In this document: positions 8,332-42,900 of the stretch, one piece after another
How the letters are laid out: every line of letters begins with the position of its first letter
Position numbering within the stretch: the stretch's first letter is position 1
Source: Antedon bifida
Taxonomy: Eukaryota; Echinodermata; Crinoidea; Comatulida; Antedonidae
Length of the DNA: 64,000 nucleotides
Direction: 5' to 3'
Assembly (NCBI GenBank): GCA_963402885.1
Contig: OY727095.1
Coordinates: forward strand, 10,173,001-10,237,000
Notes under the pieces: model-generated
The model's database searches: none
Told to the model about the DNA's origin: nothing
Seen by the model: the letters and a program-made list of their open reading frames with translations, nothing else
Program-made: the position numbers and the translations under genes

Positions 8332-8548
8332 GATGCAAGCTGTCGTCGGAGACGTTGAATATGCTGAAAGTAAGTAATTATGTGGATGATGACTCGTTTC
8401 CGATTTGAAACCTGAAAGACGAAGATAACAGACTGTTGTTACATATTGAAATATCAAAGAGGTTTCATAAGGTTTTTGGTCTCACACTGTCTATAATCAA
8501 GGCGGCCGTACAAGAATTGATTTTTAGCAATGTGTACCGTAGTGGTCC

Positions 8549-13949: not shown

Positions 13950-15113
13950 ATTTAGAAATTATTATTGTTGAAATGGACTAAAATATACTTGTCAAATCGT
14001 GTCCAGCGAGTGGTGGTAAATGGTGAGGTTTCAGATTGGATATCGGTCCAGAGTGGTATTCCTCAAGGAAGTGTATACGGTGTAATCTGCTTTACAATAT
14101 TTATCAACGACCTGCCTCAATCAGTTAAGTCACCTCTTTTTTTGTTTGCTGATGATTCAAAGACATACAAAGCTGTTGATTCAGACATAGATGCTCTTGA
14201 TTTTCAGGCGGACATTGATAAGATGTATAAATGGTCAGTAAAGTGGCAGTTGCCCTTTAATATTAATAAATGTAAGGTTATGCATCTCGGTAAAAAATCC
14301 TTGAACACAACATACTTTATGGGAACAGGTTCAGATAGAATTCAGTTAGGAGTTGTAACTCAGATGAGAGATCTTGGTGTTTTAGTTGATAATAAATTGA
14401 ATTTTCATGATCATATCGTTGAAGTTGTTAAAAAGGCCAACTCTAGACTTGGTTTAATTAAGAGAACCTTTGAATATTTAGACAGTCATTTAGTGTCTAT
14501 CCTTTATAAATCAATGGTTAGACCGATTTTAGAATATTCTAGTACGGCTTGTCTTCCTCAGTTTGTTGGTGATTCTATTCTCTTAGAAAAAGTTCAGCAA
14601 AGAGCCACAAAACTTGCTGTGGAAATTAAAACTCAACCATATAGTGACCGAATGAAATTTATGAAACTGCCATCATTAGCATTTCGAAGAAAGAGGTCTT
14701 GCTGTTTACAGATTTTTAGAATGATACAAAAGTATGATAATGTTAATCCGGGTGTCTTTTTTGAATTAGCACCATCTACTGTAACTAGAGGCCACAATTT
14801 TAAAATTTAAAAAGTTCATAGTAAATCGAAACACAGACAGAAATTCTTTTCAATATCTGCAGTAAATGATTGGAATAGTTTGCCATATCATATAGTAAAT
14901 GCATTCTCTATAAATAATTTTAAAACCCATCTTGAAACACACTGGAAAACCCACAACCTAAAGTTTGAGCCATATAACTAAGATGTCCAAAGAGGGACTC
15001 ACAAACCTTAACAGGTTTATAGTCTAAAGGTCAAGGTAAATTAAATAAAGATGTATTGTCTCACAAACCATATAACGAATAAAGATGAATAAAACTAAAC
15101 TTTGAATCGTACA
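13950..15113 (+). mobile_element. Truncated non-LTR retrotransposon (reverse transcriptase remnant)
   Basis: The frame from about 13962 to 14810 encodes the back half of a LINE-type reverse transcriptase: SGIPQGSVYGVICF, then FADDSKTYKAV with the catalytic YADD-like box as FADD, then the thumb and C-terminal region. A stop at 14808-14810 interrupts the frame. The reading continues in the same frame to a second stop near 14981 with typical LINE C-terminal content, so this looks like a nonsense mutation. The 5' half, including any endonuclease, is absent; a frame stop at 13953 marks the break. The 3' end has GAATAAAGATGAATAAA. The style is CR1/Jockey-like; the clade is not certain. Not expected to be active. 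Confidence 0.85.
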
Positions 15114-17854: not shown

Positions 17855-18112
17855 AAGCTCCTATCAAACTAGTTTAACAAAAAAAGTGTGATGTGCCCAA
17901 ATATGGTAGTGATATGCCAAAATATGGTAGTGATATGACATCATCAGCTCTATCTACATTCTACATTATCAAACTAGTTTGACAAAAAAACTGCGGTGTG
18001 CCCAAATATGGTAGTGATATGCCCAAATATGGTAGTGATATGACATCACAATGTCCATATATGGGCACATCACATTTTTTGTCCAATAAAGTTTGATAGT
18101 GTAGACAGAGAT
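17855..18112. mobile_element. MITE family B, two joined copies
   Basis: CAAACTAGTTT followed by CCCAAATATGGTAGTGATATG occurs twice, the first copy lacking its outer end. The right part ends in GTTTGATAGTGTAGACAGAG. It looks like one element inserted in, or duplicated next to, another. Confidence 0.7.
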
Positions 18113-20536: not shown

Positions 20537-23500
20537 ATGGAATGTAATTTGACGTTAAAGCCAAGCCGACTAGAGAAAGCAAACGCTTTGCTGAAAATAA
20601 CTTTTGGGTAAGTAGGTAAAGGTGGGTGGCGTCGGGGAGGTGCGCGAGGACAACAGCAGTATACTAGATTAATAGTAGTCAATTAAACCTACACTAACCA
20701 TTCCTTCACACTCTCCTTGTTTTAAAGGCCTATCGAACACTACTTATATAGCCCTTTTAATTAGAAAATTGTTCAGTATCTTACAATGTTTGTAAATAAT
20801 ATATATGTACTTCGGGCCGCTGGCCTATGTGCTGTAGGGCCTACAAATAAATGCCCTAGATCAGGAGTTTTTAAGAAGTAGAAGTATTTTAATAGAGCTC
20901 AGGATAAGATAAAACGTAAAATCAAAAGCTACCTTTGAATATAGAACATTACATACCAGATGAACATTTACAACAATTACCTTTGTCAGTATTTTAGGAG
21001 CTTTGTTAGTAGGACACGGTATCAATTTATTTCGTCTAGAAGCGCTTAAGCCATACTTATTTGTCATTAAACGCAGTACCCCATAAATAGCTTCAAAAGT
21101 TGATTGTTAAACTGGAACTTACGCTATTGTTATATCAAATAATAGAATAAATCTAGAATTATACACATACATTTGATCAAAACCTTTAAAATTTGACAAA
21201 ACTATTATATATAATAGTCCCATATCCATTATTATTTCAATACTACACCTGTCCTACACAAGTAAGCATGCATGCAACTGTATAATTTTAGTTTGTTCAC
21301 CATAAAAGAAAAAACACACACACAAGAAGCCTATTTGTATTTTTTTAAATTCTTTTGTAGGATTCAACCACTTTTGTTTTTCTCTTTATCACACATGACA
21401 TTATTTAGCGTGACTTTGTGTTTTATGTAGATGGTGTTTACACTTGTTTCTAACGGGATCTAATGAAACATTGACACAGGACCACCTGGACAATGTTCCA
21501 TCAGACGTATCGTCGGAATGTCTTGTACACGAATTAGAAAGGTATATTCACATTTCAGATTGTTTATTCCTTGGGTCGCCTAACCGTTAAGCATGACCCC
21601 AAATCCTTACCTTAGAGGCAGAAATCATCTTGACACTGATTAAGACAAATAGTACATAGTAGACCTAATGAAAAAAGATGTTCATTGTAGAACAGGACGA
21701 ATACGACACACATAACCCAGACTAGTATGTCATAAACCACTACTACTAATCTTCAGTGGCGTAACGCAGAGGCCCGAGGCCCATGGTTTAGGAATTCTAA
21801 GTGGTCCTCCAACGCTGGAGGCCTCGGGTGTTTAGCCTTTTTCGACATATTTTCCTCTAGGCACTGCTCACGGCCCACATAAGCTCTGGAGCCCCTAAGT
21901 TTAGCCAATGAGGGCTCATGGCCGTTACGCCACTGCTAATCTTCTACAACTAATAATGTCAATCAATATTTTCTACAATCTTTTATAAAGTGAATGGGAT
22001 AATGAGCAAGAGAAGGCAAGAGACAAAGGAACACGACCCAGTCTACGCCGGTCAATATTCCATGCGTTCTTTCCTCAATTGCTGAGGTTTAATGTACTTG
22101 GAGTTTTCATGGTTAGTATAAGTTTCCAATTTACTGCACATCTTTGCAGTTTCTATCAATATCGCGCAATCGACAGTTTTAGTTTAAAGTGTTTTCTGTT
22201 TTCTTTTCTAACTCGATGAAAGTCACGGTGCTGTGAAGCTGGTGAATTCTTTACATCAAACTAGCTAAAATTGTAAAGTGAGCCAGTAAAATCATTGGCC
22301 TTAGCCTTGAACCTCTCTCGCTTCATGAAAGGGACATCCTAAAAACTGTAAATAAAATTCGTCAGGATCCCGATCACGCTCTAAATAAATTGTTTAAGCT
22401 TAGCCAATCTGGTAGACTGATCACTCTGAATCAAAATACTTAAACGTTGCCGACAATCATTTGTTTATAATAATATTCATGTATTTAATAGAAAGTTTGT
22501 TAGATCTCTTTAAATTAATTGGTTAAATGCTTTTGTTGACATTGTAAATAGTATGTAAATCAAACGGTAAACCAACCAACCAAATTTCATTTGTACCTCA
22601 TTGTTAAAATGATATCTTATCGTATCGTATCACTGCTGGGTTTTTTTTTCGGTTGGTGGTTTAGAAAAAACGTAGTTACAGTAGTAAAACTCCTTTTGGT
22701 CTGCTTAAGATGCGGAAATCTTGCTGTAAGTGTAGGTTAACCTACTGGCCACACAAACATCATGACTCTGCGCATTATACCTTTTCAGTCCTTCTTCTAA
22801 ATAGTATGGAAATATCACGTAGGCTTATCTATAGATTTATATTTAACTCTTAAATATTGTGTGGTCTGCTTCTGGTCCATGAGCAGTGCCTAGAGGATTA
22901 ATAGGAATTATGGCCTAAAATATGCCGAAAAGGCTAAAAACGTCCGAGGCTCCCAGCGTTGGAACTTGGAGGGCTTCCTAAACCAGGGGCCTCAGGCCTC
23001 TGCGTTACGCCACTGTCTCACCACCGTTACCGTTCATCTGAAACTACTATTTGTCTTTTTATTTGTAGGAAATGATTACACTGAGCCAACCGATATTGTT
23101 TTCCAAGTTTGTGTATTTATTTGAGCATGGTGAAACGCCTACGGTTGGAACCTCGCTATTGCATTTAGCTCTTCTAGCAGCATCTATCATGGTACCAGAC
23201 GTACTACGGGAACCGTTCGTATTTCACAATCGACTTTTTGGAAGGAAAATTCAAGTAGCGTGTCGATCGCTAATTTACAAAAAGGTATTACCACAACTCA
23301 TTTTATTATTTTATTTTAAAAGTATTTGTGCTATTTACATAATTCTAAACGTATGGACACTATTGAGTTTGAAGAGGACAAATTCGAAAATGAATGGACC
23401 ACTTTGACCCATAAGTAGGCCTACACTTTATTTTGACTCTGGTCGGTTGCAATAACCTAGAAAGATAGTATATTAATTAATTATATTATGCACATGCTGT

Positions 23501-26500
23501 TTTAAGGCGAAGAAACCAGTTACTCAAATTTTAGTTAAATCTTTGAATGGAGGGTATAAACAGAACAATTTTGAACCACAAATTACCGAAGTCGTGATAA
23601 AACAAAGCTACAGTTAGGTAATACTCTGTAGATATGTAAGCCTACTAGTTTCAGAACCATTAACTAACTAACAAACCGTAAACTGTATTCGTTTTTCCTA
23701 AGATTCTAAAATTAAGCAACTCAACTATTTTGAAGAACTCCGCCCTTGTTGATGAAACGGACAAGTTCAATAAGGTATGTTTTCAAAAGTATAGGCCTAA
23801 ACCGTTTCAAAATGATAGGCCTACATAATACATGACCTAACCATTAAACAACCTGTTTTGCATTTCAGATCAAATGTACTTTAAATAATGATATATTTTA
23901 TGACAAATGTCAAACTTATATGAATCGAGAAATTTTAATTTAAAAAGTGATAAACTTTTTTTTTCTTGTAGATATCAACAGTATTTCCGTATCTGTGGCT
24001 TGCTCCAATTAACTGTATTGTGTCAATGGTTATATTAATCTACTACGTTGGATTGTCATGGGGATATACGCTACTTGGCTTCGGTATAGTTCTTATAATA
24101 TTTTTACCTCTTCAAACGCTTCAAAGGAAGATGCATATTATTTACAGGTTGGTTTTTTATCATCTAATAATTTAAGCCACCGTATTTACTGTGGCCCGAA
24201 TAAGCATTATTATTTCCGTGTTCTGTACTGTATTTTAACTAGGCCTACTATATAACTACAGCACAATCCCTCCTTTGTGAACCCTTATTCAGGGGACACT
24301 TTTTCGTTCAACGTTTTGTTCGGTCCCAAAGATTTCCACTTTATATGAGTTCTACTGTATTCTAATCTACATATGAATGAGCGTAGGACAGTACCAATGT
24401 ATTACCGTATTTAAAGATGGAATGTAATTATTTAAAGTTTCATAATTTGTAGAACTAAACATTGTTTATTGTTACCTGTATATTTCTTTTTATTAGAGAA
24501 AGGGCTGCAAGAATAAGAAAATATCGATTATCAATACTATCTGAAGCATTTACATCAATGCGTGTGATCAAAATGTCTGTATTAGAAAGAAGTTTTTCTG
24601 AAATAATCAAAAAGATTCGCGAGTAAGTATAGTGAACACCTTGTCTACATTAGGCTCGTTTTCCACTAGGAGGTAAGCGCAACGCAGCTAATTCGACCAA
24701 TTATTAGCGATGGATTATCCGAATTGTTTCTTGTGATTGGTCAACTCACGTCTTACGTCCATAGAGTGGTCTATTCCATCATTGTAATCTGCACTTCGTA
24801 CCGCAATACGCATCCTCCCTGGTGTTTGTACTGGGGCAGTTGTAGTTTAAATATTGGATTCAAACCCGAACTATTCTCAGACGATCGAAGCAATAAAAAA
24901 GCATGTGTATTTGTGCCTGTATAGGCGTTGTGATCAAGCAGGTAGGCCTAATCGAAAAACACTAAATGGGAAGATACACTATATTATTTACTATTTACAT
25001 AGGTACAAACCCTGTACTGAAATTGCTTAAATTTGCATCTTTTATATGTTTGTATTTAACTAAATGAACTTCTCTACATTTTTTAGATCTGAATTGTCTG
25101 CTGTTCTGCTCTCTGCAATATTTAAGTTCATTGCCATGGTGATCACGTTCTTTGGACATCGACTTTTGGAAGTTGTGCACCTGACTATCTACTTTGTAAC
25201 AGCGGAACGTTACATGATCTCACATGTATTTGTCATTTTCAGTTTAATGTATATTATTCGCCCAACCGTGCTGGAGTATTTTCCAAAAGCGATATATCTG
25301 TATAATGAATGCATTCTAGGATGTGATAAAATAGAGGTAAGTTCGTTTTCGCCGTGGATATTCGTCCGACGCCGACTCACTGTTGACATCACACGCTCTG
25401 GCAGTTGATGGGTCTTCATGTAATTTTGTGTTCGTACGAATATCAACGGTTGACATTATAAAGGCAAACAATTTATTTAGACGATGGTCCTCATTTAGAA
25501 CAAGATATTGAATATGTTATGGTGTTTTACAGTTCCAATGCCATCCTCAACTGTGGTACGAGAACAGACTTCTCGAACAAGTACTTAAAACTGGAAGTTC
25601 CGTTGAACACATCCGGATAGTTAGACTTGCTCCAAGTCTGTATTTATTGTCTTTTTTATTTAGTCCACCAGCCGACGTTTCGATTTTTGTCTGGAAATAT
25701 CTGGAATATCCCAGCTCAAGTAGTATACGTATGAAACGTCATATGTGCAAAAATATTTTTTTTTAAATTTATTTATTATTTATTTTATTTTATTTATTGT
25801 CTTTTTTATTTAGTCCACCAGCCGACGTTTCGATTTTTGTCTGGAAATATCTGGAATATCCCAGCTCAAGTAGTATACGTATGAAACGTCATATGTGCAA
25901 AAATATTTTTTTTCAAATAATATTAAGACAAACCTCCGTCTGGAATCCAGACTGCCGGATAGTGTGCACTTTCAGGAAAAAGTTGGGGTTATCCCAATGG
26001 ATGTACTGGTCCATCTGAGCCTCTGTCGTGGATAGAAAACTGAGCGCCGACCTGAAGAGACCTTCGGCAGAGGAGAGTTCACTAAGCTTTGAAATTATCT
26101 ATTCATTATATCCATATAATATTTGATATTATTTGTTTATTGTCAGGAATTTATGCTACTCAATGAGAAGGAGCATTTATCAGAAGACAGTACTCGATAT
26201 TCGTACTCAAAGGAATCGAAGGAAGAGCCACGAATCGTTGTGAATGAGCTAGGATGCAAATGGGAGGTAAAGGGATATAATATGTAATTCCAAATTGTTT
26301 CATTAGGAAGCCTATGATCTATTATAGTTATTACACTACTTATTGGACTGCAACAATGGAAGCGATTTGCGACGAGCTAGGACCTAGTTACGTCATGTTA
26401 TTTAATTGTGTGCATGTCGGGACATGCTTCCTTGCTCGATTTGTCGATAAACATGTTCGCGGATTATATACAGTAGGTCTACGACGACCAAAACAAATCG

Positions 26501-29500
26501 AAAATCGAAAGGTTCCTTATTGATATGCTTTGTTAGGACCATAAATAGTGCTACCACCCTTTATATTATTTATTTTTAAATAAAATTCATTGGTAATATA
26601 CTAATGACGTAATATGATCCAATATATACTTATCGGAACCATAATGAAAGATGAGTAAAATCGCCTTATAAACACACTAGAGATTAATAAAATACCTAAT
26701 AAAACATAATACATTTACGTCTACAGAATTCAGAAGACTTTGCTTTAGAAAATGTAGCGATTGATATATGTTCTGGAGATATATTGGGCGTGGTTGGAGC
26801 GAGTGGTTCAGGAAAGGTAAGTATTTAGGTAGTTTATCAACAAAATAAACAACTAACGTACATTAGAAGGAAACTATATTGTACGTGAGTGGAGTGCCTT
26901 CGTTTGACCGAACATAATTTATTCCTAAGCTCTGTCTACACTATCAAACTTTGTGTGCCCATGAATATGAAGATGTCATATCATTACCATATTTGGGCAT
27001 ATCACCACCATATTTGGGCACATCACACTTTTGTTGTCAAACTTGAAGAACATTTATTCTTATGAAGGTACTGTTCTGCATGGAACCCCCGCAGTTTAAA
27101 CGCGGACAAAACCACAGAAGAATAGCTTCTCTTTCTTGAGCTACACTTGCTCACTTTATTACTATTCATCCGTTCATCCGGTAAACTAAAACAAAAGCAA
27201 ACAGAGAAACAATTGATACGGCGCCATTAAGCACGTCCCTAACGTACTACGGCTTATCACACATAACTCGCCGTTAAGATGGGCATACTATCATCAATAT
27301 GTCTATCAAACTTAACTAATTCATCAGTAAATAATAAATACAAATTATATAATGTAAATACCTGATACTAGGGCTCACTTATAAATGATTATGTCTCCAC
27401 ACGGAGCATCAAAAGTGTACAACAACGTTAATACAATGTATCGCCTATTGTGCACCGCTCTCATACAATGAACAGTGACTACAACAAACCGTGACTAGCC
27501 TAATTTGCATATCAAGGTATCAAGGTGCGATGTACATACATAACAGGTACTGTAGTTTGATGGAACTTTATTGGCTAATGCTCTCCGGGTCTTGTTTTAT
27601 CTTCTTGTGTCTTAAACTGTCGGATGAATATCGACGGCGAGCTAGTAATATTATAGCCTTTGTCTATTTACCCTTTAAGAATATGCAACTTAATAGTATG
27701 ATATTCTCTACTTCTATTCGGTACAGACAGCGTTCCATATGTCTCTATTACAAGAAATACCCATCCAAGGTACCATTGCGGATGAATATCGAATCGACGG
27801 CGAGCTAGTTATATATATAGCCTTGGTCTATTTACTCTTTAAGAATATGAAACATTATAGTATGATATTCTCTATATTTATTCGGTACAGACAGCGTTCC
27901 TTATGGCTCTATTGCAAGAGATACCCATCATTACTGGCAACATAAAGATTCAAGGTACCATTGCGTATGTCTCACAAAGACCATCGATTTTTCCGGGGAC
28001 GATTCGACAAAACATTTTGTTCGGAAAACAATACGATGAATGTAGATACTTAAAAGTAATAGAAACGGTGTTGCTTACAAAGGTATGTTAAATTTAGAGA
28101 TATTTTTGGTCTACTTTAATCTATTAATTCACCCTATATGTGCTGTATCTCCACCCACATCATTTTCCATAATTAGCAAATTATATAACATGGTGTCGGG
28201 TATGTAGGCCTATCACATGTGGCGCCTGTATTATGTTAGTTAACTTATAATTCGTCACTGTCCCAAACAAGGGCCAATATGCCTCAACACTACGGTCAAC
28301 CTCTATTCAGGAGAAACCTCTATAAAGGGGACACTTTGTTGAGCCCCGAACTATTAATATGTAAATTAACCGCAGCAATATCGATTTTGTTTTCAAGTTC
28401 ATCAACAGCCTCCATGAAAAAGATTTATCTATGACAAGCAAACTGCGACTGACAATCGACCAAGAAGCAAAGATTAACCTAGCAAGAGCTCTATACAAAG
28501 ATGCTGACATTTACCTACTTGATGATCCATTCACATACATGGATTCAAACACTTCTAGATATATATTTGAAAAGTAAGATTTGATTTTAGGTTTCTTTGT
28601 TTAAACATTTTTCGGTGTTACAGTATAACTACACTAGATTTGAAGAAAACATCAATACAGTTTTTATTACTATTATTATTTATTATTATACTGTTACTCC
28701 GTAGTAGTAGTAGTAGTAAAAATCATCATCGTCCATTACGCTATACATCTATTGTATAAATGTGCTATTACGTTTAATTTATTCTTTTTTCAACAAGCAC
28801 AAGTACTTCCACCCGGCTCAATTTTGAAAATACACTGCAAAAGATAGAACATTAGATTAGGCCTAGCATAATGTTAGGCCCTTCCCCATCTCTTCTATTA
28901 ACAATCTACTACCATGAAACTTTCTCAATAATAAGATGATAGTCTGTCAATTACTGGATTGTATTTACTTCTTTCAGTTAGTAGTCTTATAATTAATTTA
29001 ACGAAACATATTGCTGTACTATATGTTATTTTTACAGTGGTATAATGGGATGTCTTAAAAAGAAAACACGGATCATGACAACATCACGCCCGTCATTCAT
29101 GCGAGAAGTGGACAGAATACTTGTTTTGAAACAGGTAGGCTTATAGAATAGTTTAATAGTAGTAGCTTATAGTAACTTATGGTATTACACCAAGGTAACT
29201 TCTACACATGAATAAAAAAGCGATTAAAGTTGCGACTCCATTTATTGGGAAATATGGGAATATATGAAATGTATCATTGTCATTTACAGGGAAAATTAGA
29301 AATAATTGGAGGCTACTATGACGTCAGGATTATTCAATCGTTCATCTCATCGTTTAGCGACATTGATACCGTGTATTCAAATGCAGAGTCTGTGAGTGTT
29401 CATAAAGTGTTGTATATTATCCGAAACAAACCGAAAAATGTGAAAAACAAACATGCATACCTGAGCGAAACACTAGCAAAAAAGCAACCAAGCAATCAAC

Positions 29501-32500
29501 AATCATTTGGTTCACAAATCAACCAAGCAACCAACTACCAACAAACAAACAATCATTTGGCTCACAAATCAACCAAGCAACCAACTACCAACAAACAAAC
29601 AATCATTTGGCTCACAAATCAACCAAACAACCAACTACCAACAGAAAAACAATCATTTGGCTCACAAATTAACCAAGCAACCAACTACCAACAAACAAAC
29701 AATCATTTGGCTCACAAATCAACCAAACAACCAACTACCAACAGAAAAACAATCATTTGGCTCACAAATCAACCAAGCAACCAACTACCAACAAACAAAC
29801 AATCATTTGGCTCACAAATCAACCAAACAACCAACTACCAACAGAAAAACAATCATTTGGCTCACAAATCAACCAAGCAACCAACTACCAATAAACAAAC
29901 AATCATTTGGCTCACAAATCAACCAAGCAACCAACTACCAACAAACAATCATTTGGCTCATAAATAAACCAAGCAACCAACTACCAACAAACAAACAATC
30001 ATTTGGCTCATAAATAAACCAAGCAACCAACTACCAACAAACAAACAATCATTTGGCTCACAAATCAACCAAACAACCAACTACCAACAGAAAAACAATC
30101 ATTTGGCTCACAAATCAACCAAGCAACCAACTACCAACAGAAAAACAATCATTTGGCTCACAAATTAACCAAGCAACCAACTACCAACAAACAAACAATC
30201 ATTTGGCTCACAAATAAACCAAGCAACCAACTACCAACAAACAAACAATCATTTGGCTCACAAATCAACCAAGCAACCAACTACCAACAAACAAACAATC
30301 ATTTGGCTCACAAATCAACCAAACAACCAACTACCAACAGAAAAACAATCATTTGGCTCACAAATCAACCAAGCAACCAACTACCAACAAACAAACAATC
30401 ATTTGGCTCACAAATCAACCAAGCAACCAACTACCAACAAACAATCATTTGGCTCATAAATAAACCAAGCAACCAACTACCAACAAACAAACAATCATTT
30501 GGCTCACAAATAAACCAAGCAACCAACTACCAACAAACAAACAATCATTTGGCTCACAAATAAACCAAGCAACCAACTACCAACAAACAAACACTCATTT
30601 GGCTCACAAATAAACCAAGCAACCAACTACCAACAAACAAACAATCATTTGGCTCACAAATCAACCAAGCAACCAACCACCAACAAACAATCATTTGGCG
30701 CATAAATAAACCAAGCAACCAACTACCAACAAACAAACAATCATTTGGCTCACAAATCAACCAAGCAACCAACTACCAACAAACAAACAATCATTTGGCT
30801 CACAAATAAACCAAGCAACCAACTACCAACAAACAAACAATCATTTGGCTCACAAATCAACCAACCAAACGACTAACAACAAACACTCATTTGGCTCACA
30901 AATAAACCAAGCAACCAACTACCAACAAACAAACAATCATTTGGCTCACAAATAAACCAAGCAACCAACTACCAACAAACAAACAATCATTTGGCTCACA
31001 AATAAACCAAGCAACCAACTACCAACAAACAAACACTCATTTGGCTCACAAATAAACCAAGCAACCAACTACCAACAAACAAACAATCATTTGGCTCACA
31101 AATCAACCAAGCAACCAACTACCAACAAACAATCATTTGGCTCATAAATAAACCAAGCAACCAACTACCAACAAACAAACACTCATTTGGCTCACAAATA
31201 AACCAAGCAACCAACTACCAACAAACAAACAATCATTTGGCTCACAAATCAACCAAGCAACCAACTACCAACAAACAATCATTTGGCTCATAAATAAACC
31301 AAGCAACCAACTACCAACAAACAAACAATCATTTGGCTCACAAATCAACCAAGCAACCAACTACCAACAAACAATCATTTGGCTCATAAATAAACCAAGC
31401 AACCAACTACCAACAAACAAACAATCATTTGGCTCATAAATAAACCAAGCAACCAACTACCAACAAACAAACAATCATTTGGCTCACAAATAAACCAAGC
31501 AACCAACTACCAACAAACAAACAATCATTTGGCTCACAAATAAACCAAGCAACCAACTACCAACAAACAAACACTCATTTGGCTCACAAATAAACCAAGC
31601 AACCAACTACCAACAAACAAACAATCATTTGGCTCACAAATCAATCAAGCAACCAACTACCAACAAACAATCATTTGGCTCATAAATAAACCAAGCAACC
31701 AACTACCAACAAACAAACAATCATTTGGCTCACAAATAAACCAAGCAACCAACTACCAACAAACAAACAATCATTTGGCTCACAAATAAACCAAGGAACC
31801 AACTACCAACAAACAAACAATCATTTGGCTCACAAATAAACCAAGCAACCAACTACCAACAAACAAACAATCATTTGGCTCACAAATCAACCAACCAAAC
31901 GACTAACAACAAACAAATTAAAAAAAAGTAAAGAGACAAACCTAAAACATTATAACTAATAATAAACTATAGCCAACACTTCTACCAACCATGCCCAACC
32001 GAATAATGTGCTAGATGGATTAATAATGTATCTTTTTTTCTAAATTTAGGAAGAAGAGGCAGACTCTACTCCACATGTCAAATACAGTAGCATGGCAAAT
32101 ATTCAAATAGATGCGAATGAAAATACATCGGTAAATCATATTTATTTCTAATAAAACATTTTGTAAATGTAAAGAAGTCGGCAATTGCACCAGTTTGACA
32201 TTACTGAACAAAATGTTGAAAATAAGACGTTGTTGTGTATAATTCTCTACATTTCTTTTTCAATAGCTTATTGATTCCAAAAGTGTCGAATCTGAGCAAA
32301 AGATTAACAACAAGCACTACGCAGACTATTTCTGCGCAGGAAGCAATAACTACGGACTTACTGTTTTGGTCATTTGCATATTGATAACACAGGTACGTTT
32401 GTGATTAGTCTGATGTTTGCCCTACAAAATTACGTCAAATTAAGGACAAAAATGTCATCATTACTTAGCTCCCTGACGCAAGGCTACTTCGTTTGTATAA

Positions 32501-35500
32501 ACTTAGGTTTAATAATGGAGTTCATTGTCTAAAGCTCTGTCTACATTATCAAAGTATGTGACAAAACAAATGTGATGCACCTATATATAGACATGATGAT
32601 GTCATATCACTACCATATTTGAGCATATCATCACCATATGTGGGCACATCGCATTTTTACACAACATATCGAAAATCTTACACAATAATGATGTACCGAA
32701 GGCCTACTTGGGGCTCTGTGAAGTACCTAAACTCGGTTTGATAAGGCTAGTCTGACCGATCTTAATTGTACCACCATCCTCAGAGTTATACACATATTCT
32801 AGCCCGTCAAAAAAGTACATCAAACTTTAACAAAAGGACACATACTGCTCCACATGTCCAATACAGTTGCATGGCAACCACTTGAATTGTAGTTACTTCA
32901 ACTTAAACTTTGTTCTGTTTAAAAGAAGTAAAACTTAATCTTCATTTTTATATGCATTTCTTTATATTTCTTTTATGAATATTTAATTAGCAAAATGTTA
33001 AAATTAAGGTTATTTTAATTAGCAAAATGTTAAAAAAGGTTGTGTTTTGGAATATTGTCTAAAAATTGTATTATCTTATTACACAGGTGATGTATTTTAT
33101 GGCGGACTTCTGGATTGCTCATTGGGCAGATTTAGAGCAATGTTACAGACATCATTTTAATGACACAACTTGTAACGAATTTAGGGTAAGCAGTATTCAA
33201 GTTGTGTTGTGTCAAGACTCACAGCTAAATGGCAGAATGGCATCGTTCACCCGATCATTCAGCTGTCACTAGATACACCATAACTGACTAACGCAAGTCA
33301 GTGAGATACAAGTCTATGTGTATTATGTACTTTAATACATTTTACCTCTAGATGCCTATGTGTAGATAAGGTATAACCAGGGAAGAGTTTTTCAGCTGTC
33401 ACTAGACACACCATAACTGACTAACGCAAGTCAGTGAGATACAAGTCTATGTGTATTATGTACTTTAATACATGTTACCTCTAGATGCCTAGGTGTAGAT
33501 AAGGTATAATGCGAATAAATTTTCCAGCAGTACTTAATGCTTCGGGAACCAGAAGACATGCGTATTTCGCAGATCAGTATTAACAATTTATTCTATTTTT
33601 CCATAGTTCCTTGACCCTTTCGATTACGTTGAACTGAACAACGCTGATTCTACTTTGGTATTTATTATTTTTATCGGGGCATGTTCATTCACGACAATTC
33701 TGTACGGCGTTCTATTTTTCCTCATCACGTTAAACGCATGCAAACGGCTTCATGAAACTGTGTTCAACCAAGTCATCCAAACTGCCATGCTCTTTTTCAA
33801 CAGTACACCACTGGGTAAGTTTAATAATAATGACATTTGGTTTGCACGATATGCCATTGTGATTTTCAAAGTTTGAATATATGATAGTAATTATCGGGTG
33901 CTAACATGTAATATGGGTATCGTTAATAAAATTGTCTCCTTTGCTTAATTTTGTCCAATAGAAGCACTTATAATTTAAATACAATCTTCTAATCTGATAA
34001 TGAAGACGAGTGTCCCCAGTTTCATTATTAACTCTTTTGCTACTGTAGATTGTATGTTGCGCCGATTCAACGAAGACATGCGTACTATGGAAGACGAACT
34101 ACCCACGACAATGTTAGGTTCAATCCAAGTGATGGTTTTAACGTGCGGCATTGTTGTAGTCAATATGATCATGAGCTGGTACTTAATATTCATTGCTGTG
34201 CCACTAATTGCTTTAATTTTGTACGTAAGAAACAAGACTGCCAAACCTAGGATCGAAATTCAAAATTTGGAAGAAATGTGTACGTATTGTATTACATGAG
34301 TATTACTCATTATTAGTATTACTTTCGCTTGTGATAATATAAAATAGTCAGCTTTTATTTGTTTCTTTCAGTGCAACTGCCTGTTGATGAACATGTTGAC
34401 AAGACGATACATGGTTTGACCACCATTCGCTCTCATCAAGCGCGCGATGCTTTCTTGGAATCATTCTACGACGCTCAAGATAGCCTAAATGAGGCATGGA
34501 TTGCGAATCAAGCGTCACAGAGGTTATTGTCTGTCAGTTACTACTGTAGTGTGCAAGTGTTTATAGTATGCATTTTATTCGCTAGTCTCATCGGTAAAAG
34601 TGGTAAGAAAATTCAAACTTGATTTAAAACAAATTAATTTCACCCTATACAACTAGATTAGGGAGCTTTAAGATTTTCGACGACCGAGGATTGACGACCA
34701 AGCTAGGTCAGGTCAAATCGATGTTTCGTCGGTCGTCGCCTGAACCGGACCTGTGTTGGCGTGAGGATATGACGTAATTTGAACGTAGAAATGGTAGACC
34801 TAAATTAGAAGAAAACAAAATAACAAATAATAGGCCTAACTTCCTTAGTATAGTTCTTACCTTCCATCTTGTTATTTTAGGATTAAGTGTTGGTTTAGTT
34901 GGAATTGTTGTAGGCCGTGTACTACTGTTGTCGCAACTAATACAGAAAAGTATTTTCGGTATGAACGATACAGAAAAACTGGTGAGTGTTGATATGCATT
35001 GTATATTAATGTGACAACAATAAGAAAATACAGAAAGTAAGGAAATATAATGTAAAAGACTTATATAGATAGAAAATGACACGATGGACACATTGATCCA
35101 ATTTCTTAAATCTTCAATTGCAATAGTATAGTTTGTAAATGTTTGTAACTAATGCGGAGTAGTGTTGCGCCAATGCACTTAGCATGGAGTACAGAATAAG
35201 TCAGAGTAGAGCAAACATCTGACAAATAGTAAAGTTGGCACTTTGTAAAAAAGTAAATACGTTTTGTTTTGATAGATGAAATCGGTAATACGAGTTACAG
35301 ACTACACGCACTTATATCCCGAAGCGCCACGATTCAATAAATATACGAAACCACCGGCATCATGGCCTGAAGAAGGCAACATAACCTTCAGTAATGTCTT
35401 TTTGTCATATTCTGCTGAAAGTCCTATCGTTTTAAAGAACATGAGTTTTAATATAGAACACCGTGAAAAGGTAAGACTGTTGCATATTATCAAAAATCTT

Positions 35501-38024
35501 GTCAAAAATGTAAATTGTTTTAAGTACCAACAATGAGACCATATGAACCATAGCGTGTCTATACAACCTCATCATTGTCTTCATTTAGTTTACTGTCTAC
35601 AAGTACAGGTACTATATGGAGGACTGGCTGCTCGTAAAAGAATATGGGTTCTTTAGCCTCGAGCCTCCTAAGGCAAGCCCAAAGACGGCGTGTTATGAGG
35701 ACACGGCCTAGTCGTACGACGCTGCCTGAGTTGTGCGTCAGTGATGTATCTATGATAATAAATACAATCAACTATTTTATATTACAAAACGAGGTACACT
35801 TACTTTCTATCTTAAAGATTGGAGTATTGGGTAGAAGAGGTGCCGGTAAGAGCTCAATAGCAACGGCTTTCTTCCGTCTTGCGGAGCCTACGGGAACCAT
35901 TTTGATCGATGGTGTCAACATCAGTTCTCTTGGTCTTTATAACCTTAGAAAAAAGATATCAATTGTCCCAAAGGTAAGAAATAGGCCATGGTACATTTTT
36001 GTTTTGCTTTTATTATTAGTAAATTCACAATGATCTCTCTGTGAAGCCGTGGGTTACCTTTGTGCCTTTGGGCTGTAGCAATTAAGTTGTCTGTAAAACA
36101 CTTTTTTGTTTCTGAAAAAAAAAACTTGGCCGAATGGTTAAAGAGAATATTGTTTTATTCCAGGATCCAGTTTTGTTTTCTACATCACTACGTGTTAATA
36201 TAGACCCATTTGGAGAATATAACGACTTTGCGTTATGGGAAGCTTTGAAAAGGGTAAGATCGGATTATTGCCTTTTTGAGATTATTTGAAATTTGTTGAA
36301 ATATTGACTGATTCAGTTTCAAGAACATTTATTGATTTCAATAATGGCAAAATAACAATAATATATATAATATAATTAAGACATTATTGAGGATCATGTA
36401 AAAGAAGAAAACAAGTTTCTTGTCACTTGCATGATTCCAAAGAAATTCAACCATGCTCCATCTCGCCGAATAGAACAGTCAATATTTCTCAAAAGCATAT
36501 ACTTTCCAGTAAACTTAAGTAAATATAATAATAATATAGCACATAAAAGTTAAGTTTGCGGTACACCGTGTGTTCTAAAAGGAAATATCTTTATGGTTAA
36601 GAATGTCTAGACGTTTTGTTTTTGTGATACAACCGTCGTCTCTTTAGGAGAATTTCGCCGTAATACGCTTAACAAGAAAAATGACAGAAAGTTGTTAAAG
36701 TTGTCTTAAATTATTGTAATTGAAGTTGCCCGAATAATTGAGTTAAGTAAACCTTTCCAAAGGAAGACAGAGGCCCAAGCCTATGTAATACGTTTGTGTA
36801 ATGCTATTTTTTCAGGTTCGGTTAGACTGGTATGTAAGAGAGTGCATGGGGAAGCTGGACATGACGGTAGGAGATGGAGGCAACCAGTTTAGTGTCGGAC
36901 AGCGTCAGTTGATCTACCTTGCAAGAGCTATTCTTCGACGCAATAAAATTCTTATTGTAGAGGAACCGATCAAAAGCGACGATCAGATGTAAGTATTTCA
37001 AATAAATTATGAAAGTAAAATATTAATCTATATATATTACTGTTAATTAATGATCGACGTAAAACTGAGAAGCTTGTATATATGTAATTTAACTCTGATA
37101 ACATTAAGTAATTATTACTATTGTAATATAAAGAAAATTTGTACCGTAGTTTTTTCACACGTCGCGCGTGTGAAACCCCATTAGAGTACGCGGCCCCTTC
37201 GTCACGGTGTCATTACAGTTGTCATCTCCTCTGTGTTGTTGCTTTTCTGCTTGTGTTAACACGGTATAATTCTTTTGTAACTGGTCAATAAAGACACATC
37301 TACACCGAAAATAGCTTATAAAGATGATGATGAAAATAATTTTTTTTAAACGCTGATTTATTTTTATAGTATAACTTCATTGATACAAACCACGATTCGA
37401 AGTCACTTCAAATACTGTACAGTGTTTACAATCACGAACAGACTCAACAATATTATGGATTCTGATAGGGTAATGGTAAGTGACGCTGCATTTGTTACGA
37501 TAAATCAGGATGAAATCATAAGCCTAAATTAAAAAAGACACTTAGCCTATTTGCATTTCGATTAGCATCCTGAGATCCTGATTGACTTAGTTATTCGACG
37601 TAATGTATCTGGCTTGTGATGCGGTAGGTCAATGCTCACCACACCGCCGTTTGAGTGCACAAATTGTGTGACGATATAGAGGGCGACATTTCGATTTACA
37701 AAAGTAACGCGGCAGGGCAAGGCGGCTAATTGATATTGTCGATTTCTGTTTAAAATGCATTGCAGACACACAGATTTCTCAGAGAAGAGTTAATTTAACT
37801 CTTCCCTGGATTTCTGTAATTATTTTTTTTTGCCCAAGGCTAAGGCTAATCATGTTTAATTCTTATAGGTTATTGATGACGGCGAACTTGTCGAGTTTGA
37901 CACGGCTTATACTTTGCTGCAAAACCGGACTTCTCTCGTGAGAAAACTTCTAAAAGAATCAAATACCTTTGAACGAAAACGTCTTCTTGGTATTGCAACA
38001 GCGTTTCATGCAGAACGAAGATAA
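20537..38024 (+). CDS. ABCC-family (ABCC4/MRP4-like) ABC protein, 27 coding exons
   Basis: Assembled by eye with matching phases: 20537-20607, 21431-21541, 21991-22111, 23069-23284, 23703-23774, 23972-24147, 24497-24622, 25087-25336, 26147-26266, 26727-26816, 27891-28082, 28398-28573, 29038-29134, 29290-29391, 32050-32130, 32267-32392, 33087-33185, 33607-33814, 34049-34279, 34372-34602, 34881-34981, 35276-35470, 35818-35973, 36164-36253, 36816-36988, 37370-37475, 37869-38024. The sum is 3,873 nt, 1,290 aa plus stop, close to human ABCC4 length. The start has an in-frame TGA upstream at 20525. Order: TMD1, NBD1, short linker, TMD2, NBD2; there is no TMD0 and no CFTR-type R domain. Family role: ATP-driven export of organic anions at the plasma membrane. 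Here many ATPase motifs are altered (see domain entries), so transport may be lost or changed. The open frame argues against a pseudogene. Exon ends near 20607, 28398 and 34279 rest on phase choice. Confidence 0.9.
21754..21935. mobile_element. hAT-like MITE with perfect 8-bp duplication
   Basis: A 182-bp element with ends CAGTGGCGTAACG and CGTTACGCCACTG, a perfect 13-bp inverted pair. CTAATCTT flanks it on both sides (21746-21753 and 21936-21943). It lies in intron 2 of the ABCC gene. Confidence 0.93.
22876..23015. mobile_element. hAT-like MITE, truncated, inverted
   Basis: A reverse-oriented relative of 21754-21935 ending in CGTTACGCCACTG at 23003-23015. The other end is lost near GAGCAGTGCCTAGAGG. 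It ends 54 bases before ABCC exon 4. Confidence 0.8.
24262..24362. mobile_element. pogo-like MITE fragment
   Basis: Contains GAACCCTTATTCAGGGGACAC and ends in GAGTTCTACTGTA, as in the element at 16168. It lies in ABCC intron 6. Confidence 0.5.
24651..24775. mobile_element. MITE family C fragment
   Basis: GCTCGTTTTCCACTAGGAGG is followed by GCGCAACGCAGC, GATGGATTATCCGAA and GATTGGTCAACTCACG. These words match the complete copy at 52599 in mixed orientation. The right end is degraded. Confidence 0.5.
25617..25960. repeat. Dispersed repeat D with an internal tandem copy
   Basis: Reverse-oriented repeat D. Within it a segment from TTGTCTTTTTTATTTAGTCC to CATATGTGCAAAAATA occurs twice, at about 25647-25759 and 25798-25910 (offset 151), nearly identical. 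It ends in GGAATCCAGACTGCC. It lies in ABCC intron 8. Confidence 0.75.
26938..27043. mobile_element. MITE family B, right-truncated
   Basis: Starts AGCTCTGTCTACACTATC and keeps the ATTTGGGCACATCACAC interior but lacks the terminal GTGTAGACAGAGCT. It lies in ABCC intron 10. Confidence 0.7.
27621..27890 (+). repeat. Tandem copy of the exon 11 splice region (pseudo-exon)
   Basis: About 100 bases of intron 10 plus the first part of ABCC exon 11 are duplicated at an offset of 164: a GGTACAG acceptor at 27721-27726 precedes ACAGCGTTCCATATG, as GGTACAG at 27885-27890 precedes the true exon. The upstream copy reads in frame for [13 protein letters not shown], then lacks the ITGNIKI codons and runs into GATGAATATCGA, the start of the next repeat. 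It has no clear donor, so it is probably a decoy or a decayed exon. Confidence 0.75.
29481..31916. repeat. Large minisatellite of 50-bp units
   Basis: About 49 tandem copies of a 50-base unit containing ATTTGGCTCACAAATC and CAAGCAACCAACTACC. The + strand is A/C-rich and poor in G. Variants are 46-base units missing four bases of the ACAAACAAAC part, AGAAAAAC versus ACAAACAAAC, ACTCATTT versus AATCATTT, and AAATAAACC versus AAATCAACC. The array fills most of ABCC intron 14. Long open frames across it follow from stop-poor repeats and are not genes. Confidence 0.97.
32533..32662. mobile_element. MITE family B, right-truncated
   Basis: AGCTCTGTCTACATTATC on the left with the usual interior; the right inverted end is missing after GGGCACATCGCATTTTTA. 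It lies in ABCC intron 16. Confidence 0.65.
33261..33510. repeat. Tandem duplication, 133-bp period
   Basis: AGCTGTCACTAGA begins at 33261 and 33394. Each copy runs through ACGCAAGTCAGTGAGATAC to GTGTAGATAAGGTATAA. A few substitutions separate them. It lies in ABCC intron 17. Confidence 0.85.
35276..38024 (+). other. ABCC gene, NBD2 exons 22-27
   Basis: Residues 1000-1290. Walker A is GRRGAGKSS (Lys1075). The Q-loop Gln is Lys1116 (SIVPK then DPVLF across an exon join). The signature FSVGQRQL at 1171-1178 is intact. Walker B reads ILIVEEP, so the Asp that binds Mg is Glu1195 while the catalytic Glu is Glu1196. The conserved EATAxxD D-loop is EEPIKSDD. The switch His is Asn1227 in TITNRL. The C-terminus [18 protein letters not shown] is normal for ABCC proteins. 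Confidence 0.87.
37153..37175. other. CpG-rich hairpin in ABCC intron 25
   Basis: TTTCACACG and CGTGTGAAA form a perfect 9-bp stem around TCGCG. It stands out in AT-rich intron DNA. No function is assigned. Confidence 0.4.
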
Positions 38025-39078: not shown

Positions 39079-39919
39079 GTGAGTAGTTATATACATTTAA
39101 ATAAAATAATAATTAGTTAATAACAGTGCATATATGTAGCGTTTGTACTTGCACAAGAGTGTAATTAAGTAATCTCATAACATTTACTTGGTGTTTTATA
39201 TGTGTGTAGACCCAGATTTTAAATGAATTTTTGTATCCACTCTTTCGCGGTTGCCTAGCTAGCTAAGCTTAGAGAAATACTCGTTCTGCTTGAGTAGTTT
39301 CCTTGTGTGTTGTTTTTTTGCATCCGGTCCGTGTGTTTACACACATAAGCCGGCCGGTGTATTTGTTGATACCTGTCTGTGGCAGGGTATTGTAGATGCA
39401 TGTTCAGTATCATTCATAGTAGAATTGTTCATTCATTGTTATACACACAAATAACTAATTCGTTGTTAAATCTCATAATGTCGCATGATGCAATAAAGCA
39501 TTGGATGCATGTATTGTATTTGATATTGCATCATCATCCTCCCTGGATACAACAATAGGCCCTACTGTACACTGATGAGGGGCCTATTAATAATTATATA
39601 ATAGAGACACATTAATAAACACAAATTTTTAAGTAAACAATCTTGTCAATGTGTTGTATCAATAACAAGGTAAACAAAAAAAATGATAAAAGAGTACTGT
39701 TGTATTATAATAGTCCCATGGGACAGTTAGGGTATACTGTAGAAGTGAAAACAGAGAAGTGGGATTTATATACTCTGATTGATAGTGAGAATGAATCCGG
39801 TGTGTCGATATTTAGCCTAAATTTGTGGAAGCATATACTTGTATACAATAACAATATTAAATAAATTACAGCATATATTTATAGATTTCGTATTCCACAT
39901 TATAGGCCCAGTACTGAAA

Positions 39920-42900
39920 ATGGCTGAACCAAACTCAAAGAAATCCCGTGCAGATGGTAACCGTACCGTGGTTCTAGCCTACAGTGGTGGCCTTGATACG
40001 TCCTGTATATTGGTTTGGCTTCTGGAACAGAGCTATGATGTTGTCTGCTACATGGTAATTTATTATTTTTGTATTTTATTTATTATATATTTATAATATT
40101 TACACTAGGCCTATATAAATATTTTAATTTGTTGTCTGATTATTTGAATATTAACAAGAAATAAAAGAAAGTAATTGTAATGTAAACAAATTTGTAAAAA
40201 AACAAATTATAAAAAAAAATAAATTGAAAAATAATTACTTACTAATTTAAAAAAAAAACCATAATTGTTTATTTTGTAATCGCTGGCAGCACTTAGATGA
40301 TGAAATTTCTATTTCATTCCAGCTTTTACCGTATGCAAAATAATAATCTTAATACACAACTTTTTACATCTGGTCTAATATATTACAAGCGCTGCTAACC
40401 AGGAAATTAAGATTACATAGTAAATCCATAGCCAGACATTTTAAGGGATATTTTCTCCACATATTTTTTATGAAATTGCTACAGGATTATATAAAAAGTG
40501 TAAATAAAAATTATAAATATGTTTCAACAGTCAGAGCTATATCAATTTTAAATTTAACAATTGATTTTACACTTACATTTATTTTCATTTTCTATAACTT
40601 AATGTGTTAACTGTAATTTAAAAAAAAATATAAATGTTTATTATTAAATATTTCAGAATATAGTACAAACCACGCTTAAGCTTTGTCTACACTATCAAAC
40701 TTTATGTGATGTTCCCATATATGGACATGATGATGTCATATCACTTCCATATTTGGGCATATCACTATCATATTTGGGCACATCACACTTTTTTTGTAAA
40801 AACTTCAATAGTGTAGACAGAGCTTTAGAACTGTGGAATAGGGTAGTATGACTGCATACTTCAGTACATTATGAATGCAAAATTTATTAACATAGAAAAA
40901 CGTATGGAATGTTTTCTGTCTCCTTATAACAGGTGCAATAGCTACCACATTGCCTCTGGTAATTTATTATAATATTTAGCAGATTATAATAAAAAAAAAA
41001 ACAATTGTCTGGAATAATGAGAATTTAATTTATAATTCATAAAAATTAGACTACAATTACACATTTTTTCAAATAATGTTTACTAAATTTTAATACACAA
41101 ATTTACTACAGAAATATAACAAAAGAGGCAGGAAATCTTTTGTATTTAACTCTTATACCTATTCAACTAAAAAAAGTAAAATAATCCTCCTTTGTGCAAT
41201 CAATTTGGGAAAGTTATGGTAATGTTTGTGAATTCAATTCAGTGTTTTCAAGTCCTTGAAAATGGATTGGTTTTGGAAATATTTAAAAATGTACAATTTG
41301 AATGAATAAATAAGTGTTTTAAAATAAATTTTGTTGGGTGGGTTGTTTTAAAATGTTGACAATGACATGGAAGACTGGTTCATAAATAACTACATATGTT
41401 GTGAATTTCACGACTAGCCAAAATCAGCTCGAAAGTTTGACAACAGCGCTTTTGCACTTGACTTGTACATTTCAGTTTGAGTTTAATTGAGATGAGTTGC
41501 ATTCCATGTCAATATAAACCCCGCTTAACCCTGCTTGTTTTATTTATATTTCCATTGAGATCCATTCCATAGCATTGCCATGTTTTCAGTTATTTTACTA
41601 TGGATTCTTATCTAATTGCAAACTTTTAGTTGTGAAATATTTAATGATTATAGGCAAATGTAGGTCAAGATGATGACTTCAAAGCAGCAGAAGAAAAAGC
41701 CATTAAACTTGGCGCAAAAAAGGTAAGAAAAAATATATCAGACCTCAAATACAAATACATTTATTCATCAAATCACAAATAAAATAATGGCAAAATGTGC
41801 AAAGCTCATGAGTTGAAAGCCTGACGTTTTTTAAAAAGTTGATGAAACCAAGCTATGTCGGGTCAACTCATATGAAAATTGTATTCCCATTCTCATAAAC
41901 ATTCTTTAGTAGGTAAGTATGTAGCATAAAGTTTCAGCATATGGCACTTTTAATAAGAGTACTTCAAATAAGTTCAGTATTAACCTAAAGTAATACAGTT
42001 ACTACAACTTAAAAGGTTAAACATTTACAGGCAAACATATTGTGAAGTGGTATTTGTTTCTGGTGTGTATAACAAGCGGACAAAAAAAACTTTTGTTTAT
42101 ATGATGTCTGGAAAAAAGCCTACACTTGAGTCGTAACACATTTTATTTCAAAGACTTTATCAAGGATGTAGAAAATGAAAGGGTAGAAATGGCAATAAAT
42201 AAAATCGGGGAGGGAGTGTGGTTGAAATATTTGAATACTGTTTACAATGATGTCTGGTCGACATAAGTTGGCTAAAATTCATACGGTACCTTTTGGAAGA
42301 CCATAATGCTTTAAATCTTCACATACTGTACATTAACAATTTAATGAGCTATTGTTAGCTATATTTTGTTCATTCAATAACTCAGACAGATTATCGTGTT
42401 TAACAATACTGTCTAGCAATTTCATTTTTCTACTGTCAACGTTACAAATAATGTGTACCTTTAAATGATTGTTTATCTTATTATTTAACTCCTATTTACA
42501 CTTTAAAAAATAGCTTAATCTCTGAATGGTATTATTGAATGTGCATACAGGGTAAATATAATACAATATAATATAATGGTATTCACAGTTTAGCAATTCA
42601 CTGAACATTGATTTTGGCACCCATTTTGGAAGTAAAAATCAATAGTAGTCACAGTGCATTGTAATACTATATTCTGTTGAAGTACTGCTGATCTTTGTGT
42701 ATTGGAAAATTTGTTAAGTGCTTTCTACGAGTGATCGTAACTCGGACATTATTACAGTTGATGCAAATTTGAAAGAGAAAACATTTGATGATTATCTTGT
42801 TTGCAATATCAGCCCTATTCACATTTTAGGGTGAACAATTAAAAAAATTTCATTTTTTGTTTATAAATATAATTCAATTTTAGATGTCCTGAAACCTCTT

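Follow-up and report, generated by a model that had tools for sequence, protein, structure and literature searches.

What does selection keep of an ABC exporter in which the residues that drive its ATPase have changed? This question is raised by an ABCC4-like gene of Antedon bifida, in the following called W, which occupies positions 20537-38024 on the + strand of the 64,000-nucleotide stretch analysed here as our window (contig OY727095.1; G000:C8:10173001-10237000). An initial annotation, made from the letters alone, had described W as an intact gene whose canonical ATPase site looks disabled. We compared W with P and O, two other ABCC4 genes of the same genome (315.6 Mb in 27 contigs), and with an ABCC4 chain from the PDB (8sx7, u151454), which we take to be mammalian. 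Our preferred reading, held with somewhat better than even confidence, is that the protein encoded by W is kept although it does not cycle ATP at transport speed. More tentatively, and a little short of even, we propose that this full-length ABCC exporter has two non-catalytic ATP sites, is maintained by selection, works by ATP binding alone or without a nucleotide cycle, and has an active sister nearby.

We rebuilt the exon chain of W by hand. It runs from an ATG at 20537 to a TAA at 38024 in 27 exons with compatible phases and comprises 1,290 codons; on rechecking, 26 of 26 introns were GT-AG, so that the 27-exon, stop-free gene of the initial annotation is borne out. Over the 1,290 codons no stop, no frameshift and no lost splice site was found, i.e. 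none of the marks of a decayed pseudogene. A spliced aligner with the W protein as query returned 27 exons and an identical protein, which speaks for self-consistency only. Pfam detected ABC_tran (PF00005) and ABC_membrane (PF00664) in two stretches each: the protein has two transmembrane domains (TMDs) and two nucleotide-binding domains (NBDs) without a TMD0, and its residue 7 aligns with residue 8 of ABCC4. Among the best 60 of 449 PDB matches, the closest is ABCC4/MRP4 (E = 8.7e-226, 755.8 bits) and the top 8 distinct sequences are all ABCC4/MRP4; MRP1 reaches 496.7 bits and CFTR at most 478.6 bits. Identity amounts to 44% between W and P, 34% between W and the PDB chain and 44% between P and the chain. 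Judged by the PDB match and a tree of four sequences, W is a member of the ABCC subfamily and of ABCC4 type by descent. Hydropathy peaks were similar in number (15 in W, 14 in P, 17 in the PDB chain; a crude count in which some peaks lie inside the NBDs), and the membrane part of W therefore appears to be without clear loss.

The ATP-site motifs were aligned between P, the PDB chain and W. In NBD1 of W we find Walker A GASGSGKT (residues 445-452), Q480, the signature LTIDQ (533-537), Walker B IYLLDD (553-558), TYMD (561-564) and Ser590; in NBD2, Walker A GRRGAGKS (1069-1076), Lys1116, FSVGQ (1171-1175), Walker B ILIVEE (1191-1196), KSDD (1199-1202) and Asn1227. At nucleotide-binding site 2 (NBS2), the canonical site, the NBD1 signature is thus LTIDQ and not LSGGQ, and the NBD1 D-loop has changed from SAVD to TYMD. 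Exon 12 is two codons short in comparison to P, so the signature change was accompanied by a two-residue deletion. From the side of NBD2, Lys1116 replaces the Q-loop Gln, Glu1195 the Mg-binding Asp and Asn1227 the H-loop His; Walker A GRRGAGKS with Lys1075 and the catalytic Glu1196 are kept. PMC10202912 and PMC11948813 label human MRP4 residues in agreement with the named chain residues, and E1202, the catalytic Glu, corresponds to Glu1196 of W. LSGGQ and the NBD2 Q-loop Gln, Walker B Asp-Glu and H-loop His, by which a working ABCC4 pump would be recognised, were not found in W. All residue changes listed by the initial annotation (LTIDQ, Lys1116, Glu1195, Asn1227 and Ser590, with FSVGQ intact) are present, and with signature, Q-loop, Mg Asp and H-loop all changed NBS2 looks dead, as had been proposed.

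The initial annotation had gone further and suggested a swap of which site is lost; on this reading site 1 has become the active one and site 2 the degenerate one. In full-length human ABC proteins, according to a review, it is without exception NBS1 that is degenerate (PMC7756269). Site 1 of W does keep Walker A (Lys451/Thr452), Gln480, Asp557 of Walker B and the FSVGQ of NBD2, and a consensus site beside a degenerate site of NBS2 make-up, i.e. with the NBD1 signature and the Walker motifs and H-loop of NBD2, is known from the plant ABCD protein CTS (PMC4652930). Against this, W shares with P and the PDB chain both the Asp at the position of the catalytic Glu (Asp558) and FSVGQ; its H-loop His has been replaced by Ser590, and nothing has been restored at NBS1. 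On these three residues or motifs we rejected the swap, which we regard as the least probable of all explanations considered here. Because Asp558 and FSVGQ are those of P and the chain and the His is now lost as well, W appears doubly degenerate rather than swapped: as read from the motifs, both ATP sites are degenerate, site 1 in the manner of ordinary ABCC4, plus the loss of its His. The NBD2 D-loop reads KSDD, and both D-loops of W are altered; like the deletion in exon 12, this goes beyond the changes listed in the initial annotation. Of the motif positions that P and the PDB chain have in common, 24 belong to NBS2, of which W keeps 13, and 22 to NBS1, of which it keeps 15. By this count both sites have suffered to a similar extent.

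A gene-model or assembly error that hides canonical motifs is only marginally less improbable than the swap. We found no support for it: the + strand of 20.4-38.2 kb, read unspliced in its three frames, contains no LSGGQ/E, DEAT, LDEP or AHRL peptide. A tblastn search with P (E up to 10) across 264 kb around the window gave no match beyond the exons of W and P except three weak ones (E 4.0 to 9.4), which belong to a repeat in the right flank. From frame scan and tblastn, no spare exon is seen that would restore the motifs; such restoration by other exons is what the initial annotation had named as contrary to its proposal. In addition, exon lengths agree with those of P, and the changes are scattered substitutions and in-frame indels.

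Within 100 kb on each side of the window one relative appears, P. It lies 14-29 kb past the left end, 5' of W and on the opposite strand (G000:C8:10143996-10159086, window coordinates -13914 to -29004), and the two ATGs are 34 kb apart. Its model, for which W served as guide and exon 1 as well as the ends of exon 5 and of the last exon were set by hand, has 28 exons and 1,304 residues. Its motifs are canonical (LSGGQ, VTHQ, IPQDP, FSVGQ, LDEATANVD, AHRL). With the two P exons that correspond to W exon 19 joined, 18 of 27 exon lengths are equal, and the nine differences (-3, -18, +3, -6, -9, +3, -9, +9, -12) are all multiples of 3. The models of P and O both have an intron at the same place within the region of exon 19, and W has therefore probably lost it.

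A search of the whole genome with W gave 41 matches, with 36 of 163 candidates scored: W itself, P, and others on contigs C10, C14, C9 and C11. No closer copy of W than P was among the matches listed. O, on C10, is a canonical ABCC4 gene with 50.5% identity to the PDB ABCC4 chain (LSGGQ, VTHQ, IPQDP, LSVGQ, DEATANVD, AHRL); its model (22347332-22363794) starts after the first 97 residues in P numbering, and very small exons at about 290-350 and 540-680 are doubtful. C10 carries two ABCC4 genes about 20 kb apart on one strand (G000:C10:22346001-22373000) and a weaker ABC match at 22.54 Mb. For the neighbour of O (22.368-22.373 Mb) we modelled 423 residues of the C-terminal half, the first of which are not trustworthy; they are 92% identical to O and contain intact NBD2 motifs. 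The canonical ABCC4 paralogue that the initial annotation had proposed to look for is thus represented by P close by and by further genes on C10.

We placed W, P, O and the PDB chain on a tree under LG+G4. Over 1,161 sites, 68 quartet patterns group W with P against O and the chain, versus 20 and 12 for the two other groupings. The log-likelihood (lnL) of the tree with W and P together is -10095.8 versus -10257.7 for both others, i.e. better by 162. Branch lengths are 0.915 for W, 0.231 for P, 0.564 for O and 0.408 for the PDB chain. By these sequences W and P are sisters, and the branch of W is about four times as long as that of P. Relative-rate counts agree in direction and yield a smaller ratio than the branch lengths: with the PDB chain as outgroup 226 changes fall on W only versus 105 on P only (1,251 sites; p = 2.6e-11), with O as outgroup 206 versus 81 (1,173 sites; p = 1e-13). 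We read W as a fast-evolving, inverted duplicate of the canonical ABCC4-like gene P.

How long could an unselected gene have remained open? We ran neutral simulations with intron composition as base targets, an assumed transition bias of 2 and no indels, 300 runs each; the satellite-bearing intron of W was included in the composition when starting from the coding sequence of W and excluded when starting from that of P. From P, we counted changes at the 46 codons whose motif residues P shares with the PDB chain. When 4 of these had changed, 3 of 300 runs were still stop-free (mean 7.7 stops); at 6 and at 16 changed codons none was (means 11.1 and 29.6 stops). W has changed 18 of the 46 (16 without the two deleted ones) and contains no stop. 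Since no stop-free run was left at that many changes, the motif losses would have arisen while the frame was under selection. The simulations thus support selection for an open frame during most of the history of W, a statement about past and not present-day selection. The initial annotation had offered either a selected protein or a very recent loss; the first half stands for most of this history, and recent loss has only been limited.

How narrow this limit is can be read from the runs that started from the W sequence: 49 of 300 were stop-free after 25 amino-acid changes, 7 after 50 and none after 100 or more. For comparison, W departs from P at 206 to 226 sites at which P agrees with an outgroup. 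Catalysis may have been lost long ago under a weak function and all selection later, leaving a silent gene that has not yet acquired a stop. The runs that survived 25 changes would allow this, and the long branch of W, the canonical ABCC4 genes that remain elsewhere in the genome and a constraint that is eased across the whole protein are in its favour. It is opposed by the open frame of 1,290 codons with its 26 GT-AG introns and by the scarcity of stop-free runs from 50 changes onwards. As neutral runs soon gain stops, the release from selection must be recent relative to the 16-18 motif losses. We consider such a silent gene unlikely, and still the most serious of the competing explanations.

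Returning to a kept protein without a fast ATPase cycle, several points weigh against it. First, the whole case for W is built on genome sequence. Second, the estimates of selection are rough, because synonymous change is nearly saturated (W and P differ at 136 of 210 fourfold sites, 0.648 versus 0.717 at random) and the branch of O is at its bound; with this limit the estimates themselves speak for the reading, as pairwise maximum likelihood gives an omega of 0.063 (omega = 1 is worse by 226 lnL, 0.2 by 15), and a branch model of W, P and O gives 0.072 for W and 0.038 for P, where fixing W at 1 costs 19 lnL and at 0.3 costs 6.7. The NG86 method gives a dN of 0.49 and no finite dS; differences between W and P at the three codon positions, again on the favourable side, number 554/364/820 over 1,284 codons. 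Third, constraint has been eased everywhere. P, O and the PDB chain agree at 396 sites, of which W keeps 245; W, O and the chain agree at 283, of which P keeps 245. By region of the 396-site set, W retains 39/77 in TMD1, 58/104 in TMD2, 2/7 in the linker, 2/4 at the C-terminal end, 44/67 non-motif sites in NBD1, 74/93 in NBD2 (the best-kept class) and 26/44 in the motifs. Fourth, the motifs show no significant excess of loss: 28 of 46 are kept versus 144 of 213 other NBD sites where P equals the PDB chain (p = 0.39), and 26 of 44 versus 118 of 160 in the stricter set that includes O (p = 0.064). Finally, all selection may have been lost recently, within the some tens of amino-acid changes that the simulation allows, and residual ATPase activity of W is possible, because it retains Glu1196 and the Lys of either Walker A motif, and a site 1 of Asp type can hydrolyse slowly (PMC7756269).

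NBS2 motif sites taken alone were not lost in significant excess of other NBD sites either (p = 0.25). The ATP motifs of W are no better protected than its other conserved sites, though 44 of 50 motif columns are identical in P, O and the PDB chain. This suggests that selection on W is no longer for hydrolysis; a general easing of constraint fits the data too.

The residual activity could amount to more, and W may still be a slow but working ATPase or transporter with unusual residues (Glu1195/Glu1196, the Walker A Lys, the site-1 sandwich). Glu1196, Lys451, Lys1075 and FSVGQ would serve it, and the good preservation of NBD2 outside the motifs is in line with it. It has to accommodate that signature, Q-loop Gln, Mg Asp and H-loop of one site have all been altered, each of them canonical in P, O and the PDB chain. 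Furthermore, substrate-pocket residues are poorly preserved: of the ten listed for human MRP4 in PMC11948813 (F156, F211, F324, L363, L367, F368, R946, Q994, W995, R998), W keeps 2 (R946, Q994) and P keeps 4 (F156, F368, R946, Q994). We judge this explanation to be quite improbable, more so than a silent gene.

We therefore retain, as the reading we favour, a protein that is kept and does not pump. W would be made as a full-length ABCC protein with two TMDs and two NBDs. ABCC proteins have one fast ATPase site; in W most of the residues that drive it have changed, and the Walker A Lys and the catalytic Glu are left. It may bind ATP at site 1 without a hydrolysis cycle at transport speed. Selection would then retain it for a job that depends on the fold; candidates are the binding or regulation of another membrane protein, the binding of a ligand, or a passive or ATP-gated path.

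Table 1. Features of gene W in window coordinates.
Feature	Position	Strand	Remark
Exon 1	20537..20607	+	start codon
Exon 2	21431..21541	+	
Exon 3	21991..22111	+	
Exon 4	23069..23284	+	TMD1
Exon 5	23703..23774	+	TMD1; P exon longer by 18 nt, frame preserved
Exon 6	23972..24147	+	
Exon 7	24497..24622	+	
Exon 8	25087..25336	+	
Exon 9	26147..26266	+	
Exon 10	26727..26816	+	NBD1 Walker A (GASGSGK/T)
Partial copy of exon 11 5' end, apparently dead	27727..27792	+	in 164-bp tandem duplication
Exon 11	27891..28082	+	NBD1 Q-loop, Gln480 kept
Exon 12	28398..28573	+	NBD1 signature region, Walker B IYLLDD; P exon longer by 6 nt
LTIDQ codons (533-537)	28449..28463	+	LSGGQ in P, O and PDB ABCC4 chain
Exon 13	29038..29134	+	NBD1 H-loop region
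Codon TCA, Ser590	29084..29086	+	replaces NBD1 H-loop His
Exon 14	29290..29391	+	
Exon 15	32050..32130	+	linker
Exon 16	32267..32392	+	
Exon 17	33087..33185	+	
Exon 18	33607..33814	+	TMD2
Exon 19	34049..34279	+	TMD2; 231 nt, in P and O 80 + 151 nt with intron between
Exon 20	34372..34602	+	
Exon 21	34881..34981	+	
Exon 22	35276..35470	+	
Exon 23	35818..35973	+	NBD2 Walker A GRRGAGKS
Codon AAG, Lys1116	35971..35973	+	replaces NBD2 Q-loop Gln
Exon 24	36164..36253	+	
Exon 25	36816..36988	+	NBD2 signature FSVGQ and Walker B ILIVEE
Codons GAG GAA, Glu1195 and Glu1196	36960..36965	+	Glu1195 replaces Mg-binding Asp; Glu1196 is the catalytic Glu, kept
Exon 26	37370..37475	+	NBD2 H-loop region
Codon AAC, Asn1227	37437..37439	+	replaces NBD2 H-loop His
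Exon 27	37869..38024	+	with stop TAA

The apparently dead copy of exon 11 belongs to a tandem duplication at 27630-27929 (164 bp, 89% matches) across the boundary from intron 10 to exon 11. In the upstream copy part of the exon is missing, and the 39 exonic bases show 4 differences. By eye two of these are replacements, both in the dead copy if agreement between W and P marks the old state, and they are too few for a test.

Most of intron 14 consists of a 2.4-kb satellite (29498-31917) of about 49 copies of a 50-bp unit with 93% matches, which goes along with a strong skew in both GC and AT at 28-32 kb. Short arrays of 21-bp units like CATATCACTACCATATTTGGG, on either strand, were found at 17888-17937, 17999-18042, 26977-27026, 32603-32650, 40737-40786 and 50746-50790; apparently they are one dispersed repeat, and similar arrays seem to occur in the right flank. 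Pfam on eight neighbouring frames identified a G protein-coupled receptor, a reverse transcriptase and, in two frames, argininosuccinate synthase, with no match in the other four. The receptor (rhodopsin family, 7tm_1, E = 4.6e-31) is one open frame at 7168-8481 on the - strand between P and W. The reverse-transcriptase fragment (RVT_1, E = 2.5e-11; 13956-14810, +) also lies there and therefore points to a retroelement remnant between the two genes. Downstream of W, on the + strand, the synthase matches are N-terminal at 39821-40096 (E = 7.7e-08) and C-terminal at 50992-51276 (E = 2e-21). Elsewhere in the assembly, contig C27 (15,844 bases) can be read with NCBI table 9, the echinoderm and flatworm code, as a mitochondrial genome, which by itself makes an echinoderm source very probable. 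Its frames, which we take by recognition to be CYTB, ND6, ND5, ND4, COX3, COX2, COX1, ND1 and ND2, are divided such that COX1, COX2, COX3, CYTB, ND4 and ND5 lie opposite to ND1, ND2 and ND6.

How does W compare with known systems? The open-access literature searched gave no example of a naturally occurring, full-length ABCC protein whose ATP sites are both degenerate, which is no proof of its absence from print. ABCC4/MRP4 (PDB 8sx7, 8bjf and others; P and O) resembles W in its two TMDs and NBDs, the lack of a TMD0, the exon lengths (P) and a degenerate site 1 (DD, FSVGQ); W differs from it in the NBD1 signature, the NBD2 Q-loop and Walker B Asp, both D-loops and both H-loops. SUR1 and SUR2 (ABCC8/9) carry an extra TMD0. 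As outlined in the review, their role within the ABCC subfamily is to regulate potassium channels and not to pump, and by its rule only their site 1 is degenerate, unlike in W (PMC7756269). The same source describes the ABCC rule as one hydrolysing site, calls the advantage of the degenerate site unclear and states that hydrolysis there cannot directly sustain transport. CFTR (ABCC7) shares with W the subfamily and the degenerate site 1 and is itself a non-pump use of the fold (PMC7756269), but it retains a fast consensus site (PMC4652930). CTS/PXA1, the plant peroxisomal ABCD transporter, belongs to another subfamily; there, double degeneracy was engineered, whereas in W it would be natural. 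That mutant, CTS D606N, has two degenerate sites and its function is abolished (PMC4652930), so the nearest engineered parallel to W does not transport. Pseudoenzyme paralogues are like W in being duplicates of an active enzyme gene that have lost catalytic residues and kept the frame. If W has long been kept without an intact hydrolysing site, close to the canonical P, it would allow one to ask what selection keeps of an ABC exporter without its power stroke; and a role as regulator or passive path would make it an example, besides CFTR and SUR, of an ABCC fold that has given up pumping.

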